Source: Synechococcus sp. M44_DOE_062
GTDB taxonomy: Bacteria > Cyanobacteriota > Cyanobacteriia > Thermostichales > Thermostichaceae
DNA: 64,000 nucleotides
Assembly: GCA_015295985.1 (NCBI GenBank)
Contig: DVDX01000004.1
Span: 62,001 to 126,000 of the forward strand
Direction of reading: 5' to 3'
The translations under genes were made by a program, and so were the position numbers. Below the pieces are notes generated by a model, which was not told the origin of the DNA, did not search any database, and worked only from the letters and a program-made list of their open reading frames with translations. This document shows positions 56,347 to 64,000 of this stretch, piece after piece (the stretch's first letter is position 1; every line of letters begins with the position of its first letter).

Positions 56347-56412
56347 GCAAGGCAAGTATCCAGGGCCTATTCCAGCACCGGTCTGCTGCTGTCACAGCTT
56401 CCTTGACCCTGG

Positions 56413-56539
56413 CACTAACGTCTAAGCTCAGCGGCGCGCCAGAGCCACCAGCACGACTCTCAGCCTATACAACGACTCACGGCCATGCAGTATAAACTTT
56501 GCCCGGCGTAGGAGCGTCCGCTGCAGCGCCTTGTTCGCC
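56413..56539 (-). other. attC site of the restriction-modification cassette
   Basis: 127 bases. Outer arms on the minus strand: GGCGAAC (R'') at 56533-56539 and GTTAGTG (R') at 56413-56419. Next to them AAGGCGCTGCAGCGGACGC and GGCGCGCCGCTGAGCTTAG form a stem. CTCAGCGG pairs with its complement except for one unpaired base, the extrahelical base typical of attC. Length is inside the known 57-141 range. Confidence 0.8.
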
Positions 56540-56554
56540 GTCCCCGCGTTCGTG

Positions 56555-56964
56555 TTATTCTGCGGACAAGAACTCCGTTAATGCCTGCTTTAATTCTTCG
56601 CGATTCTTAATTTGGCATTCCCACACGACCAATACTTTCCAGTCCATATCTTCTAGTTTCTTGCGGTTACTATTATCACGTTCAACATTCCTATCTAATT
56701 TTTTATTCCAATAATCGATATTGCTTGTTGGTCGCTCCGCAGCTTTACAACTGTCATGTTGATGCCAAAAACAGCCATGCACAAAGATAATCCTCCTGTG
56801 GCGAGGGAGAACAATATCAGGCTTACCAGGAAGGTTCGATGCAGTCTATATCTATAGCCCATGCTGTGGATTAAAGATCGTACTATAAGTTCAGGAGAAG
56901 TATCTTCCCCATGAACTTTAGACATTACTTTGCTTCTTTGCTCTTTATTGAAGACGTCTGGCAT
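56555..56964 (-). pseudogene. vsr: Vsr-type T:G mismatch nickase, frameshifted
   Basis: Two overlapping frames together give a whole Vsr protein. The first (from ATG 56964) reads MPDVFNKEQRSKVMSKVHG and RSLIHSMGYRYRLHRTF. The second continues PGKPDIVLPRHRRIIFVHGCFWHQH and ends WKVLVVWECQIKN, with the family's HGCFWH zinc and active-site motif. The switch is at about 56829-56836, where one missing base explains it. Vsr repairs T:G mismatches left by deamination of methylcytosine and is normally encoded beside its C5 methyltransferase, as here (27 bases apart). Confidence 0.85.
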
Positions 56965-56991
56965 CGTTTACTATGGATACTTAAGGGTTGT

Positions 56992-58149
56992 TTATGCTTC
57001 TATCATTTCTAGCTTTGAAACTGATAGTGCGAGCCGCCGAAGTAAATGTTGCTCTAACCAGGCCACAACTGGAACTACTACTGCATCTCCCATAACATGG
57101 TAGCCGTCGTTGTAACCAGCGGGAAGCTGGTATTGCTCAGGTAATCCCATCAACCGTGCGGCCTCTCTAACAGAAAGTAGTCTTGATTGTACTACATCAC
57201 CTTTGACTACCATAATAATCTGCCTACTCGATCCCCCGACAGGTGTTCTAAGGCATCCGCTTATCCCATCGAAGCGAACTTCAGCGCGCTGTTTCTTAAT
57301 TCCTTCTTCAACACGAATGCGTTTATAAATAGTCCCAATCTCAAGACTCCCCATTTCTTGAGCCCGTCGAACTTTTGCCAAATTTATACCCGACATGAGA
57401 GATAAAATATAATCCGTTTCCTCTTTTGTATGCCACTTTACACCTTGTGGATCTTCATCGAGAAAGTCACGTAGAGTACTGGTTCGTGAAGGAGGTGCAG
57501 GCAGCTTCCACCAAATCCAAGAATCTTGGATCAGGCGTGGTAATTGTTCGTATGCATTTATTACCGATTTAGGACGCCAAATATTGTTGTTTATGGGGTT
57601 GTCAATCAAATCATCCGGGATATATTGGTCTGACTTTACAGCTATAATAAATAGTCTTGGTCGGGATTGCGGGACGAAATGCATAGCGTCGATAATTAAT
57701 GCACCAAATCGATAGCCTGAGGCCATTAGGACGTTAAGGAGTTCCTGGAAGTCTCTGCCTTTACTCGAAGTGAGCAAGCCGACCACATTCTCAAGGACAA
57801 TGATTGGCAATCCTCGACCCTCTTTTTCAAGAGCAGTTACAAGAAGCCAAAAAGGCCAGAACGTTCCGCTACGTTCTGCACTCAGGCCACGGCCATTACC
57901 TGCTAGAGACAAATCCTGACATGGGAAGGATGCCCATGCTAATACTGCACTTCCCGGAATGTCATTGGTAGTTACGTCATGAATGTCTGTAACTAATAGC
58001 TCATGAGCTGGTGGAAAATTGGCACGATAAACGTCTGCCTTCTTCTTAGAAATATCGTTGGCAAAGAGACAAGTCCAATCTGTGCCTAAGCCAATGCGAG
58101 CGAGGCCGCCTCCTGCGAAGAACTCACAGAATGTTAGGCTGCTCGACAT
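56992..58149 (-). CDS. DNA (cytosine-5) methyltransferase, type II
   Basis: 385 residues from the ATG at 58149 (MSSSLTFCEFFAGGG); a longer frame to 58191 is open but less likely. Ordered C5 motifs: I FFAGGGLARIGLG, IV with catalytic cysteine ASFPCQDLSLAGNGRGL, VI VLENVVGLL, VIII QSRPRLFIIAV, a target-recognition region (about 200-320), IX VREAARLMGLPEQY, X VMGDAVVVPV. All catalytic motifs are intact and the frame is undamaged, in contrast to both neighbours. Specificity cannot be read from sequence. Confidence 0.95.
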   Translation of the reverse strand: MSSSLTFCEFFAGGGLARIGLGTDWTCLFANDISKKKADVYRANFPPAHELLVTDIHDVTTNDIPGSAVLAWASFPCQDLSLAGNGRGLSAERSGTFWPFWLLVTALEKEGRGLPIIVLENVVGLLTSSKGRDFQELLNVLMASGYRFGALIIDAMHFVPQSRPRLFIIAVKSDQYIPDDLIDNPINNNIWRPKSVINAYEQLPRLIQDSWIWWKLPAPPSRTSTLRDFLDEDPQGVKWHTKEETDYILSLMSGINLAKVRRAQEMGSLEIGTIYKRIRVEEGIKKQRAEVRFDGISGCLRTPVGGSSRQIIMVVKGDVVQSRLLSVREAARLMGLPEQYQLPAGYNDGYHVMGDAVVVPVVAWLEQHLLRRLALSVSKLEMIEA

Positions 58150-58275
58150 AGCTACCTCTACTTTATCAAGAGACGAGTCTGTAGTTAACAAGCATAGTGC
58201 ATCTCGCTAACTTTTGCAACATGCGTTCTAGAAAGCTCTCGATAGGCACTGCATAGTTAGGCTACTCATTTTTGG

Positions 58276-58962
58276 CTATTCTGAAATTTTACCGGTCTCT
58301 TCGCCTGGTAGCTCTAACGGAATAGTACCGCCGAACTCTGTGAGACGCTCACGTGCTAGAGACTCAAGTCGCCTAGCTTGTATAACTAGCGTTCTACGAA
58401 GCCCAAGTGAAACATTACGTTCGCTGATAACTTGTGCCAAACGGGCAATGGTGTTAGCTCGCCGAGCAATTCTGATATCAGGATGCTGGCAAGAGTAGAA
58501 AATTCCATCAGGTATAATTCTGGTGCGGTACGATCGGGGTAATTCGATTTCCTCAGTTGCCGGAATATCCTTTTCGTTAAGCACCGCACCCAATTTTGAA
58601 GCACGAATTACTTGCTGGAAAACCGTATATTCTGCTGCATTCAAATAAGAACGGAAAGCAGCTTGTTCCGCCTGGGTTGGCTTGCCAAACCTGAGCGGCC
58701 AGACTTCTATGTATGCAACCTCGAAGGAATCGAGTACATTCATCGCGACTGCATCAGTCCGTTGATTTGTCATGTGTCGGCCAATTCGTGCTCACAAGCC
58801 TTCTTCTGTTTGGCCGACATAAATTGGCTCTTCATCATAGTCATAAAAGGCATACACACCCAATGCTTGTCCAATTGGACGACCATTTTCGTCTTTCACG
58901 TTCAAAAACTCACGAATTGCTTGATTGATGGCAGCAACATCTTCCGGAATTCCGCGCCTCAT
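58276..58962 (-). pseudogene. GIY-YIG nuclease (likely restriction endonuclease) with internal stop
   Basis: Reading from ATG 58962, 56 codons give GVYAFYDYDEEPIYVGQTEEGL, the GIY-YIG core, then TGA at 58792-58794. The same frame goes on with ARIGRHMTNQRTD (the arginine helix of the GIY-YIG fold) for another 171 codons to a TAG at 58276. One base change would restore a protein of about 228 residues, close to GIY-YIG restriction enzymes such as those of the Eco29kI group. Position beside a C5 methyltransferase and Vsr supports a restriction role; this is inference. Confidence 0.8.
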
Positions 58963-59056
58963 ATAACCTGTTGCCCCTTTCCGAAATGACTATAACTGAT
59001 ATACGGATGCGAGCATAGCATAGTGTTTGACACAGGGCAAGGTTATGAAGAAGGAC

Positions 59057-59142
59057 GGCGAACGGCTGAGATGAGCCGCTGCAGATAACCTCTAATTCTC
59101 GCAGATAACCTCTCGGCGGTCGGCTCCATCGATTTGTTATGC
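59057..59142 (-). other. attC site of the toxin-antitoxin cassette
   Basis: 86 bases. On the minus strand: R'' GCATAAC (59136-59142), then AAATCG and GATGGAGCCGACCGCC, a loop, GCGGCTCATCTCAGC and R' GTTCGCC (59057-59063). GATGAGCCG (59070-59078) pairs with CGGCTC-C-ATC (59121-59130) over 9 bp with one extrahelical base. The loop has a 13-base direct repeat, GCAGATAACCTCT at 59081 and 59101. R' departs from the GTTRRRY consensus but keeps GTT. Confidence 0.82.
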
Positions 59143-59157
59143 TGCGATCAGCTATTC

Positions 59158-59460
59158 CTACGACAATCGACTTCGCCATTTCTTCGGGTCTTGAGAACAG
59201 TGGAAAACGGCATAAACAACAACTGTTGTATCTGAATGCTCATAGAAGACCACGTAGGGAAAGTGCCGAATGACAGCTCTTCGATAACTTTGGTAAACCA
59301 CCTGATACATCTCTGGGTTGCGTCGGATGAATTGAATACAAGCATCAACGCAGCGAAGAAACTCTTCGCCTAAACCAAACTCCTGCTCTTCATACCACGT
59401 ATAAGCCTAAGCTACATCTTGTTCCGCCTCTGGCAGAATGATCAGGCTTCTAAGCACCAT
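59158..59460 (-). pseudogene. ParE/RelE-type toxin with early stop
   Basis: From ATG 59460: MVLRSLIILPEAEQDVA, then TAG at 59407-59409, then the same frame continues AYTWYEEQEFGLGEEFL and ends FHCSQDPKKWRSRLS at 59158. Relatives have a glutamate or other residue at the stop position (for example DIAEAYxWYE), so a GAG to TAG change fits. The full frame would be 100 residues. Overlaps the antitoxin stop by 11 bases, the usual coupling. Confidence 0.82.
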
Positions 59461-59677
59461 ACCGCCCGCTACGAATTCGTTCCTTCGCTGCTTCCCACGA
59501 ACTCCCTGAGTCAGGATTCTGCAAATAAGCAGCTTTTCTCTGAGCAAGTTCTTCTTTTTGCCAGTCAAGCACAGGAATTTGCTCTGGAGTCTGGGCAATA
59601 CTGTCCCATAAATCTTCCAGTAGTTGCAATTTTTCCGAGAGGGTTAACTCAAAAACTTGAGTGAACTCTGTGTTCAT
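59450..59677 (-). CDS. Antitoxin, addiction-module component family
   Basis: 75 residues from the ATG at 59677, which has GAGGTC 5-10 bases upstream; a longer frame to 59704 exists. Opens MNTEFTQVFELTLSEKLQLLEDLWDSIA, the TIGR02574/PF09720 antitoxin pattern, and ends with a Trp-containing segment that would wrap the ParE-like toxin. Intact although its toxin is broken. Confidence 0.85.
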   Translation of the reverse strand: MNTEFTQVFELTLSEKLQLLEDLWDSIAQTPEQIPVLDWQKEELAQRKAAYLQNPDSGSSWEAAKERIRSGRYGA

Positions 59678-59717
59678 GCTGACCTCACCATACTGATTAG
59701 GCATTCTGCTTCAAGTC

Positions 59718-59734
59718 TATCACTGGCAGTGATA
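59718..59734. promoter_or_regulatory. 17-bp palindrome upstream of the antitoxin (candidate autoregulatory operator)
   Basis: TATCACTG-G-CAGTGATA, a perfect 8-bp dyad around one base, 41 bases before the antitoxin start. Toxin-antitoxin complexes usually bind such dyads over their own promoter. Confidence 0.5.
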
Positions 59735-59884
59735 AGGCTACTCGTTTGCTAGCTATGCCTATTTGGGGCTATTGGATCTGTCGCAGCTAAACAAACTTGG
59801 TAGCTGTTGTTGACATCTTAGAATAGGTAGTGTGAGTGCAGATCATCTTCCGGTCACGCCCCCACCGAGGACTAAGCAGCATAA

Positions 59885-60023
59885 CATATGCTTGTGAAGC
59901 CAAATGACTGATAATCACCTAAGAAGCAGACTTTTCCATCACTTAGCGCTATACTACCCTAATTTGTCTGTATAGCCAACATTTTGAGCGATAATTACCT
60001 CTGAAGGGTTTTTATCTGTCTGA
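59885..60023 (-). other. attI region of the integron
   Basis: The 139 bases between the first cassette junction (GTTATGC on the minus strand, 59879-59885) and the intI start. attI sites have little conserved sequence beyond the GTT core and integrase-binding boxes, which I cannot define by eye; placement rests on the junction and on intI. Confidence 0.6.
59951..59979 (-). promoter_or_regulatory. Candidate Pc promoter driving the cassettes
   Basis: TTGGCT (plus-strand AGCCAA, 59974-59979) and TAGTAT (plus-strand ATACTA, 59951-59956) with exactly 17 bases between, pointing towards the cassettes from within the attI region, where integron Pc promoters sit. Confidence 0.5.
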
Positions 60024-60108
60024 ATGAGCATTAACACACCCATACCTAGACCCAGAAAGCTCCTGGAGCAAGTCAGTGATGCCCTCCGGGTCAAGCACTA
60101 CTCCTACC

Positions 60109-60138
60109 AAACCGAGAAATCTTAAACCGAGAAATCTT
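60109..60138 (+). repeat. 15-bp tandem duplication in intI (creates a stop)
   Basis: AAACCGAGAAATCTT occurs twice in a row. The junction reads TCT-TAA-ACC in the gene frame. Confidence 0.95.
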
Positions 60139-60716
60139 ATCTTCTCTGGATCCGTCGCTTTATCTTGTTTCACAACAAGCGACACCCCAAGGAGATGGGT
60201 GGCGAAGAAATCAACGCCTTCCTCACTCATCTGGCGGTGGAGGGTAAGGTCGCCGCTTCCACCCAAAACCAGGCTCTCAGTGCGCTGTTGTTCCTTTACC
60301 GAGAAGTGCTGCATCTGGAGCTAGACTTTGACCTAGACGCCGTGCGAGCCAAACGGTCACGCTATTTGCCTACGGTCTTAACCCCTGAGGAGGTCAAAGC
60401 CATCATTGTGCATCTATCCGGGATCCATCGCTTGGTGGTGCAGGTGCTGTATGGCAGTGGCTTGCGATTGGCGGAAGCCCAGCAGCTCCGGGTCAAAGAT
60501 GTGGATTTTAACCAACGGCAACTGGCGGTTCGCAATAGTAAAGGGATGGAGAGCCGGTTAACGATGCTGCCAGAAACCCTAGTGGAACCTTTGCAAGAAC
60601 ACTTGCTCTGGGTAAAGCGACAACATCAGCAGGACTTGGAACAAGGATATGGCTCAGTCTATCTGCCGTTTGCTTTGGAGCGAAAGTATCCCAATGCGGA
60701 GCGGGAGTGGAGCTGG

Positions 60717-60730
60717 CAATATGCAATATG
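60717..60730 (+). repeat. 7-bp tandem duplication in intI (frameshift)
   Basis: CAATATG twice in a row, between the codons for WSW and the QYVFP motif. Confidence 0.95.
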
Positions 60731-61042
60731 TCTTTCCGGCAGAAAGGTTATCTCAGGACCCTCGCACTGGCATCACCCGCCGCCATCATTTGCATGAGTC
60801 TGGATTACAACGGGCGATTAAACAAGCTGTCCAAAAAACCGGGATCCCCAAGCGGGTCAGTTGCCACACCTTCCGCCATAGTTTTGCCACTCATCTCCTG
60901 CAAAACGGCTACGACATCCGCACCGTCCAAGAATTGTTGGGCCACAAAGATGTCAAAACCACCATGATTTACACCCATGTGCTGAATAAAGGCGGGCGTG
61001 GGGTGAGAAGTCCATTGAATCCCTAGATAAAGAATGCCTTCT

Positions 61043-61063
61043 GGGGAAGGGATCCTCTTCCCC
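61043..61063. terminator. Hairpin downstream of the intI pseudogene
   Basis: GGGGAAG, 7-base loop, CTTCCCC, 17 bases after the intI stop. No T-run follows, so its role in termination is uncertain. Confidence 0.3.
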
Positions 61064-61173
61064 CTCATAGTATCTCAGCAATTATTGCGAATTGTTACAG
61101 CCTTGCCGCCATGCTCCCAGCAGGGATCCGTTTCTCTGGTAGAACGGGAAACAGACAATAGGGGATCCTGCCT

Positions 61174-61196
61174 ATCGCGTCAGCGGGACGGAATCC
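61174..61196. repeat. Dispersed element upstream of chlH
   Basis: ATCGCGTCAGCG then GGACGGAATCC, 49 bases before the chlH start codon. The rest of the 218-base gap contains GGATCC words and no gene. Confidence 0.7.
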
Positions 61197-61244
61197 TTTC
61201 CCCAATTCATTCATCTTTTGCATTGCACGACGGAGAGCGACCGC

Positions 61245-64000
61245 ATGTTTACTCTGGTTAAGCCCATCACCCGCCACGTTACCCCTGCCGAGGTGGGGGA
61301 TCGCCGCTTGATGAAGGTGGTGTATGTGGTGTTGGAGCCGCAATATCAGAGTGCTCTGACGGCGGCTGTGCAGCGCATCAATGCCCACAACTCCAAGCTG
61401 GCGGTGGAGCTGGCTGGCTATCTGGTGGAGGAGCTGCGGGATCCGGCAGGCTACGATGCCTTCAAGCGGGATCTGGAAACGGCCAATGTCTTTATCGGAT
61501 CCCTAATTTTTATTGAAGACATTGCCCAGAAGGTGGTGCAGGCGGTACAGCCCCTGCGGGAGCGGCTGGATGCGGTGGTGGTCTTCCCTTCCATGCCGGA
61601 AGTGATGCGCCTGAACAAGATGGGATCCTTTTCCATGGCGCAGCTAGGCCAGTCCAAGAGTGCCATTGCCCAGTTCATGCGCAAGCGCCAGCAGGGATCC
61701 AACTTCCAAGAGGGGATGTTGAAGCTGCTGCAGACCCTGCCCAAGGTGCTGAAGTATCTGCCCTTCGACAAGGCGCAGGATGCCCGCAACTTCATGCTCA
61801 GTTTTCAGTACTGGCTGGGGGGATCCCGCGAGAACTTGGAGAACTTCTTGCTGATGTTGGCGGATCGCTACCTGCCGGGGATGCGGGATCAGGTGCAGTT
61901 TGCCGAGCCGGTCACCTATTTGGAGATGGGCATTTGGCACCCCCTGGCGCCGCAGATGTTTGCCAGCCTGTCGGAGTATCTGGACTGGTACAACGCCCGT
62001 GAGGATTTGCCGGCGGAAGTGAAGGATCCCTTGGCCCCCTGTGTGGGGTTGGTGCTGCAGCGCACCCACTTGGTGACGGGGGATGATGCCCACTATGTGG
62101 CCATGGTGCAAGAGCTGGAGTCGCGCGGGGCGCGGGTGGTGCCAGTGTTTGCCGGGGGGCTGGACTTCTCCAAGCCGGTGAACGAGTTTTTCTGGAATGC
62201 CCAAAAGACCACCCCGGTTGTGGATGTGGTGGTGTCGCTGACGGGATTTGCCCTGGTGGGGGGGCCGGCGCGGCAGGATCACCCCAAAGCGGTGGAAGCG
62301 CTGCAACGGCTGAATCGCCCCTACATGGTGGCGCTGCCCTTGGTGTTTCAATCGACGGAAGAATGGGCCAGCAGCGATCTGGGCCTACACCCAGTGCAGG
62401 TGGCTTTGCAGATCGCCATTCCCGAGCTGGACGGGGCCATCGATCCCATCATCCTCTCAGGGCGGGATGCGGCTACCGGAAAAGCCCATGCGATGCAGGA
62501 TCGGATTGAGTTGATCGCGGCGCGGGCGATTAAGTGGGCCAACCTGCGACGTAAGCCTAATCTGGAGAAGAAGATCGCCATCACCGTTTTCAGCTTCCCG
62601 CCGGACAAGGGGAATGTGGGGACGGCAGCCTACTTGGATGTGTTTGCCTCCGTTCACCGGGTGATGCAGGCCCTGGCCAACAACGGCTATGACCTCGGCC
62701 CTGTTCGCGACGGCGGGGCGGAGTCCTTGCTGCCCAAAACCCCACAGGAGCTGATGGAGGCCATCCTGCACGATGCCCAGGCCCAATATGCCAGCCCAGA
62801 GCTGAACGTGGCTGCCAAACTGTCGGTGCGGGAATACGAGGCCCTGACGCCTTATGTGAAAGCCATCGAGCAATACTGGGGGCCGGCACCGGGGCACCTG
62901 AACACGGATGGGCAAAATCTGTTGATCTACGGCAAGCACTTCGGCAACCTCTTCATCGGGGTGCAGCCCACCTTTGGGTATGAAGGGGATCCCATGCGGC
63001 TGCTCTTCTCCAAATCGGCCAGCCCTCACCACGGCTTTGCCGCCTACTACACCTACCTGGAGAAAGTGTGGGGGGCGGATGCGGTGTTGCACTTTGGCAC
63101 CCATGGATCCCTGGAGTTTATGCCGGGCAAGCAGATCGGCATGTCGGGGGAGTGCTACCCGGATAATTTGATCGGCTCTTTGCCCAACTTGTACTACTAC
63201 GCGGCCAACAACCCCAGCGAAGCCACCATTGCCAAGCGACGCGGTTATGCCTGCACCATCAGCTACCTGACGCCGCCGGCGGAAAACGCGGGCCTCTACA
63301 AAGGGCTGCAGGAGCTGCGGGAGCTGATCGGCTCTTACCAAAGCCTGCGGGAAGGAGGGCGCGGCATTCAAATTGTCAACACCATCTGCGACAAGGCGCG
63401 GCTGGTCAACCTCGACAAAGACGTGGAGCTGCCGCAGGGGGATGCTGCTCAGTTGAGCCTGGAGGAGCGGGACACGGTGGTGGGTAAGCTCTACGCCAAG
63501 CTCATGGAGATCGAGTCGCGGCTGCTGCCCTGTGGTCTGCACGTGATCGGGGTGCCCCCCACCGCCGAAGAGGCGATTGCCACCTTGGTGAGCATTGCCA
63601 GCGTTGATCGCCCGGAAGAAGGGATCCTGGGCTTGCCGCGCATCCTTGCCCAAAGCCTGGGCCGGGACATTGACGAGATCTACCGCAACCGAGATCGAGG
63701 GCACCTGGCGGATACGGAGCTGCTGGATCGCATCAACAAGGCTTGTCAAAAGGCAGTGGCAGCCCTGGTGCAGGAGCAGACCGATGCCCAGGGGCGGGTC
63801 TCCAGGGTGGCCAAGCTCAACTTCTTCAACATGGGTCGGCAAGCGCCGTGGCTAATGGCCCTGAAGGAGGCGGGCTACCCACAGGTGGATCCGGATCTTT
63901 TGAAGCCTTTGTTTGAGTTCCTGGAAGAGTGCCTGAAGCAAATTACCGCTGACCAAGAGCTGGGATCCCTGCTGAGGGCCTTGGAAGGTGAGTACATTTC
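61245..64000 (+). CDS. chlH: Magnesium chelatase subunit H, 5' part
   Basis: 918 codons open to the window end; the family has about 1300-1400 residues. ATG at 61245 with GGAGAG 8-13 bases upstream. ChlH binds protoporphyrin IX and, with ChlI and ChlD, inserts Mg2+ at the branch point to chlorophyll. Seen: the opening [87 protein letters not shown], and [20 protein letters not shown] dispersed element at 62704-62726 adds PVRDGGAES within the region that in relatives is short. Confidence 0.97.
62704..62726. repeat. Dispersed element inside chlH
   Basis: TTCGCGACGGCG then GGGCGGAGTCC, in frame, encoding VRDGGAES in an essential chlorophyll-synthesis gene, so the insert must be tolerated. Confidence 0.8.

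Follow-up and report, generated by a model that had tools for sequence, protein, structure and literature searches.

A toxin-antitoxin cassette and a restriction-modification cassette in a small, apparently decaying chromosomal integron of Synechococcus sp. M44_DOE_062

The locus described here lies in a window of 64,000 nucleotides (the whole stretch of DNA that was analysed; all coordinates refer to it). The window comes from a draft genome of 2.93 Mb in 90 contigs, with an estimated completeness of 100% and contamination of 0.06%. The closest relative with a complete genome is G004, a single contig of 3,046,682 bases. Judged from its sequence, the region is a small chromosomal integron consisting of a broken integrase gene, an attI site and two cassettes. 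The integrase gene (intI) is on the plus strand, while all cassette genes are on the minus strand and both cassettes read away from attI. Cassette 1 (59063-59884, minus strand) carries a toxin-antitoxin pair, starts with TTATGC beside attI and ends in an attC site. Cassette 2 (56419-59062, minus strand) carries restriction, modification and Vsr genes, starts with TTCGCCGTCC and also ends in an attC site. Integron cassettes require that the cassette start be the inverse of the cassette's own R'' box. The R'' box GCATAAC in the attC of cassette 1 (59057-59142, minus strand; core GTTCGCC, an additional unpaired base in the L-boxes) is the inverse of the cassette 1 start, and the R'' region GGACGGCGAAC in the attC of cassette 2 (56413-56539, minus strand; R'' GGCGAAC, core GTTAGTG) is the inverse of the cassette 2 start. 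Many other cyanobacterial genomes contain stretches that match the cassette 1 attC at identities of up to 92%. The folding energies of both attC sites were not better than those of shuffled sequences, and promoter and terminator scans of both cassettes did no better than shuffles. The gene frames of both cassettes do not appear to be chance open reading frames, because they gave near end-to-end family matches and showed synteny with relatives.

The antitoxin gene of cassette 1 (59450-59704, minus strand) was open over 84 aa and matched PF09720 (2.8e-17) and TIGR02574 (6.6e-17). The overlapping ParE-type toxin gene (59158-59457, minus strand) is a pseudogene with the nonsense codon TAG at 59407-59409, which is the 17th codon of the toxin frame; with X in place of this stop, the frame matched PF05016 with E=4.8e-11. 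Both families expected of a type II toxin-antitoxin system were present in overlapping genes, and a functional toxin was not found. An intact homologous pair is present in the genome G440, with an antitoxin 91% and a toxin 89% identical to the copies in the window. The stop in the toxin and the open antitoxin frame (59704-59450) had both been reported in a preliminary description of this DNA, and both were confirmed.

From its gene content, cassette 2 would be a type II restriction-modification system that has a Vsr repair gene of its own. The restriction nuclease gene (58276-58962, minus strand) is a GIY-YIG type II pseudogene interrupted at residue 57 by a TGA at 58792-58794. This stop, described earlier, was verified as in frame on the minus strand within the GIY-YIG frame 58962-58276. 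Read with X at the stop, the frame matched PF01541 at 2e-4, just below the cut-off, and its identity to intact GIY-YIG nucleases that adjoin C5-methyltransferases on plasmids and at genome loci was 44-64%. The nuclease relatives comprised 80 genome loci and 9 plasmid loci, with a C5-methyltransferase adjacent in nearly all and Vsr present in about two thirds. Among solved structures, no PDB chain matched the nuclease, either as a single sequence (phmmer) or as a profile (hmmsearch). Membership of the Eco29kI family was rejected, as no sequence similarity to R.Eco29kI or any PDB chain was seen. Homology to nucleases linked to C5-methyltransferases was found, and the intact nuclease of a type II system was not. 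An in-frame ATG lies shortly past the stop, so that the nuclease might conceivably work as two pieces, one of 56 aa with the GIY/YIG motifs and one of 165 aa restarted at 58773. This is scarcely credible: the relatives are single chains, the break falls inside a compact catalytic domain, and ribosome-binding evidence is absent.

The C5-cytosine methyltransferase gene (56992-58191, minus strand) was open over 399 aa and matched PF00145 (5.6e-46) and TIGR00675 (5.2e-44). Its longest frame starts from TTG, and an internal ATG at 58140 is the likelier start. The PCQ, ENV and QxRxR motifs, the FxGxG region and the C-terminal motifs all aligned with intact relatives, so the earlier report of an open gene with every motif held for both the frame and the alignment. 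Searches of the genome found no other PF00145 enzyme and none of PF01555. The surviving enzyme may continue to methylate a particular cytosine, as had been proposed. A PF01555 match in the genome G001 was an apparently truncated methyltransferase. Methyltransferases 43-57% identical to the window enzyme occur in dozens of viral contigs (L333-L376), and the family is therefore also phage-borne.

The third gene of the cassette, the very-short-patch repair endonuclease gene vsr (56555-56964, minus strand), is a pseudogene with a frameshift near 56830. Its N-terminal half (56695-56964) matched PF03852 with E=3.7e-13 and the rest lies in another frame (56555-56782), so that the domain is present but not in a single open frame. 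Vsr protects against a side effect of m5C. Two of the three genes of the restriction cassette are broken, and one of these, vsr, is protective. The GC3 of the nuclease and methyltransferase genes was 0.38 versus 0.715 in gltX, and this low GC3 suggests a foreign origin, not ameliorated, and a late or recent arrival.

Beside the cassettes, the integrase pseudogene (60024-61026, plus strand) matched TIGR02249 in two pieces, at 1e-72 and 2.4e-51; one piece of 277 bits was above the cut-off and contained one TAA. This in-frame TAA arose from a tandem duplication of 15 bp (60109-60138). A frameshift near 60735 places the C-terminal part in a different frame from the N-terminal part. The attI region (59885-60023, no strand assigned) was delimited by the sister genomes, whose homology to the window breaks off at the core site (59876-59885): the homology of G004 and G006 starts at 59876/59881 (the GTTATGC core) and runs on into intI. 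The core GCATAAC/GTTATGC can be read directly in the sequence at attI. The features of an integron were present, namely an integrase gene (as a pseudogene), an attI with cassettes at the core site and attC sites with matching ends. A functional integrase and cassette mobility were not found, and the locus would be a relic and not an active integron; it is probably immobile because the integrase has both the stop made by the duplication and the frameshift. Literature searches found no paper that names an integron in hot-spring Synechococcus.

Relatives differed in what they hold at the same flank. G004 shares the right-hand flank (window 60861-64000) with attI, an unrelated first cassette and an intI that has lost some 785 bp internally, while G002 has a C-terminal intI fragment there. 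No intI homology was found at that flank in G001, G003 and G005. These comparisons suggest that members of the genus share the integron and that it is decaying among them. Integrase remnants listed at this flank were those of the window (60024-61026), L070 (9321-9941), L071 and L072. An open integron-type integrase lies elsewhere in G003, in a region (G003:C1:1914992-1946542) that also has one C5 and two N4/N6-type methyltransferase genes, no more than about 30 kb from it. The left flank of the window integron (gltX and a short ORF) sits elsewhere in G004, and homology ends at 56392. The left end of the array (56392-56419) coincides with a rearrangement, and in G004 some 0.8 Mb separates the left flank from the integron flank.

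Altogether the integron carries five lesions in about 4.5 kb (two nonsense codons, two frameshifts and one 15-bp duplication). They damage four of the six integron genes (toxin, nuclease, vsr and intI) and leave the antitoxin and methyltransferase open. Since the sequence is a draft in 90 contigs and the frames are otherwise well conserved, the lesions could be sequencing or assembly errors in genes that are really all intact. We consider this very unlikely, as the lesions are five in number and of differing kinds within a short region, the genome has the high completeness and low contamination given above, and the integrase has also been degraded, independently, in sister genomes.

The preliminary description had read the locus as one-sided, with the harmful halves broken and the protective halves intact. 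Both stops and both open partners bear this out, but the damage to vsr and the count of damaged genes do not. One-sidedness is a selective reading of the locus, because four of six genes are damaged, including vsr and intI. We measured selection on the toxin and antitoxin by pairwise Nei-Gojobori dN/dS with bootstrap against G440, the closest intact relative. The dN/dS was 0.064 (CI 0.014-0.17) for the antitoxin and 0.042 (CI 0.014-0.094) for the toxin, and the omega of the integrase against G006 was 0.045 (0.015-0.084). The toxin was thus unrelaxed, and its stop is therefore probably recent. No relative of the methyltransferase exceeded about 57% identity over its length, and synonymous sites were saturated for both nuclease and methyltransferase, so these two were compared by the erosion of conserved sites, a conserved site being a position kept in at least 90% of relatives. 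Violations in the window were 3/79 for the nuclease, 3/74 for the methyltransferase and 1/21 for Vsr. The nuclease and methyltransferase counts did not differ (Fisher p=1), and all three lay inside the spread of the intact relatives. These tests gauge long-term constraint and are blind to selection acting solely after the lesions.

These results showed no excess constraint on the antitoxin over the toxin, nor on the methyltransferase over the nuclease. Because the omegas are low and alike and the conserved sites of the nuclease and methyltransferase are equally eroded, the lesions are likely to be recent and to follow a period of equal constraint: purifying selection seems to have acted on all halves alike until recently, whether now broken or not. 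Equal selection on both halves, which had been named in advance as the outcome that would speak against one-sided decay, was found within the power of the data; as the lesions are recent, the halves would be equally constrained and not equally relaxed. The sparing of the two open genes is not surprising under random lesions. The probability that the antitoxin and methyltransferase are both spared was 0.16 for two random lesions over the four paired genes and 0.09 for five random lesions over all six genes.

It had been suggested that selection tolerated or favoured the loss of the toxin and nuclease while protection was retained or not yet lost. Tolerated loss agrees with the data, but favoured loss or retained protection was unsupported, and nothing indicated that the antitoxin and methyltransferase are better kept than their broken partners. 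In its strong form, this reading holds that selection favoured the loss of the toxin and nuclease while the antitoxin was actively kept for anti-addiction and the methyltransferase for an orphan epigenetic or protective role. The open frames (84 codons for the antitoxin, 399 for the methyltransferase with all its motifs) and the absence of a second PF00145 enzyme from those found in the genome are in its favour, and the idea that orphan antitoxins act in anti-addiction has been described (PMC7354431). We nevertheless regard it as unlikely, given the equal constraint on both members of each pair, the loss of the Vsr that would guard against the m5C side effect, and the fair chance that random lesions would spare both genes.

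The probable explanation, in our view, is that this small integron, now immobile, has recently been decaying as a whole, survivorship setting the order of loss. A small integron would have taken up two selfish or defence cassettes. Once the integrase was lost or no longer important, the cassettes would not have been exchanged and inactivating mutations would have piled up in place. By established reasoning for such systems, the loss of a methyltransferase or antitoxin is harmful while its partner is active. A lineage whose methyltransferase went before its nuclease, or whose antitoxin went before its toxin, would damage itself, and survivors would be those that lose the toxin and nuclease first, an order for which this locus offers a single combination of lesions. 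The methyltransferase and antitoxin have probably just not been hit yet. Among related restriction-modification loci, the nuclease is damaged with the methyltransferase open in L141, L172 and L092 as well as in the window, and the reverse occurs in L164 (methyltransferase frameshifted, nuclease open) and L148 (methyltransferase incomplete); these are mostly metagenome bins in which errors are likely, and they are too few to show an order of loss. The nucleases of L141, L172 and L092 carry a stop or frameshift. Stops flagged in L110 (nuclease) and L100 (methyltransferase) were discounted, as they lie outside the conserved core.

As an indirect test for methylation by the host, we compared the frequency of palindromic motifs between about 0.96 Mb of this genome and 1.2 Mb of G004, of which 357 kb could be aligned with an identity of 92%. 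The observed/expected ratio of CAGCTG was 0.069 here versus 0.333 in G004, the most extreme of 468 palindromic motifs against G004 (z -11.4; the next was -4.8 among the motifs listed). The whole genome has 112 CAGCTG sites in 2.93 Mb (38 per Mb), while five congeners have 337-1729 sites (116-618 per Mb) and G006 has 715 per Mb, so that the density of the site per Mb is 3-16 times lower here than among the congeners. Only 2 of 61 G004 sites were conserved here. Central C-to-T versus A-to-G differences were 22:13 at CAGCTG and 94:152 at other xAGCTy (odds 2.7, p 0.009), differences between the two genomes that are not polarised in direction. CGGCCG and ACGCGT were also strongly avoided in this genome and in G004.

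The site count, the contrast with G004, the low site conservation and the C-to-T excess would fit a restriction system long active at CAGCTG, whose surviving Vsr-less methyltransferase still drives the loss of the site by deamination. Around relatives with a nuclease about 60% identical or more, CAGCTG was the lowest of 64 hexamers. However, the hexamer was likewise scarce near more distant relatives and in the controls from cyanobacteria, which makes this neighbourhood signal weak. G001 and G004 are partly depleted of CAGCTG without having the system, and the pressure on the site would therefore be older. With the changes unpolarised and the foreign GC3 suggesting recent arrival, we think this reading unlikely. 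A link between the rarity of CAGCTG and the surviving methyltransferase is a weak hypothesis, taken here as a lead. It would be a long shot that this orphan C5-methyltransferase, the sole one found in the genome, acts at CAGCTG and, being Vsr-less, leaves a growing C to T footprint recording when restriction was active.

General decay of the integron, which we favour, bears on how such loci are read, as a decaying integron may look like purposeful retention of antidotes when just two gene pairs are inspected. The locus also shows that several members of one cyanobacterial genus have integron relics at a shared chromosomal flank, where the first cassette of a sister species is a different one. 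A genome with a single known C5-methyltransferase also offers a setting in which to measure methylation and m5C mutation after the loss of Vsr.

The gene families at the locus are ordinary, and the setting is interesting but known. Sedentary integrons such as the Vibrio superintegron likewise have a TIGR02249 IntI, an attI, attC-bounded cassettes facing away and a toxin-antitoxin cassette (PMC11023631). In contrast, the window integron has just two cassettes and a cyanobacterial host, and its integrase and most of its cassette genes are broken. Inactivation of intI is common across integrons, affecting 43-46% of intI (PMC3108266), and in Vibrio toxin-antitoxin cassettes penalise cassette excision while integrase inactivation rescues strains with an overactive integron (PMC11023631). 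The type II systems of R.Eco29kI and R.Hpy188I share the GIY-YIG catalytic domain and a nuclease gene beside a methyltransferase gene, but the window nuclease belongs to a separate GIY-YIG lineage tied to C5-methyltransferases and often to Vsr. The same three neighbouring genes, with nucleases 50-64% identical, occur at L099, L113 and on a Mesorhizobium mediterraneum plasmid (L066). There the genes are intact, their order varies (nuclease, methyltransferase, Vsr in L099 as in the window), and they are not in a cyanobacterial integron. Pairs of a TIGR02574/PF09720 antitoxin and a ParE-type toxin have the same order and overlap as the pair in cassette 1, the closest being the intact pair of G440 at 89-91% identity, from which the window pair differs by the nonsense codon in its toxin.
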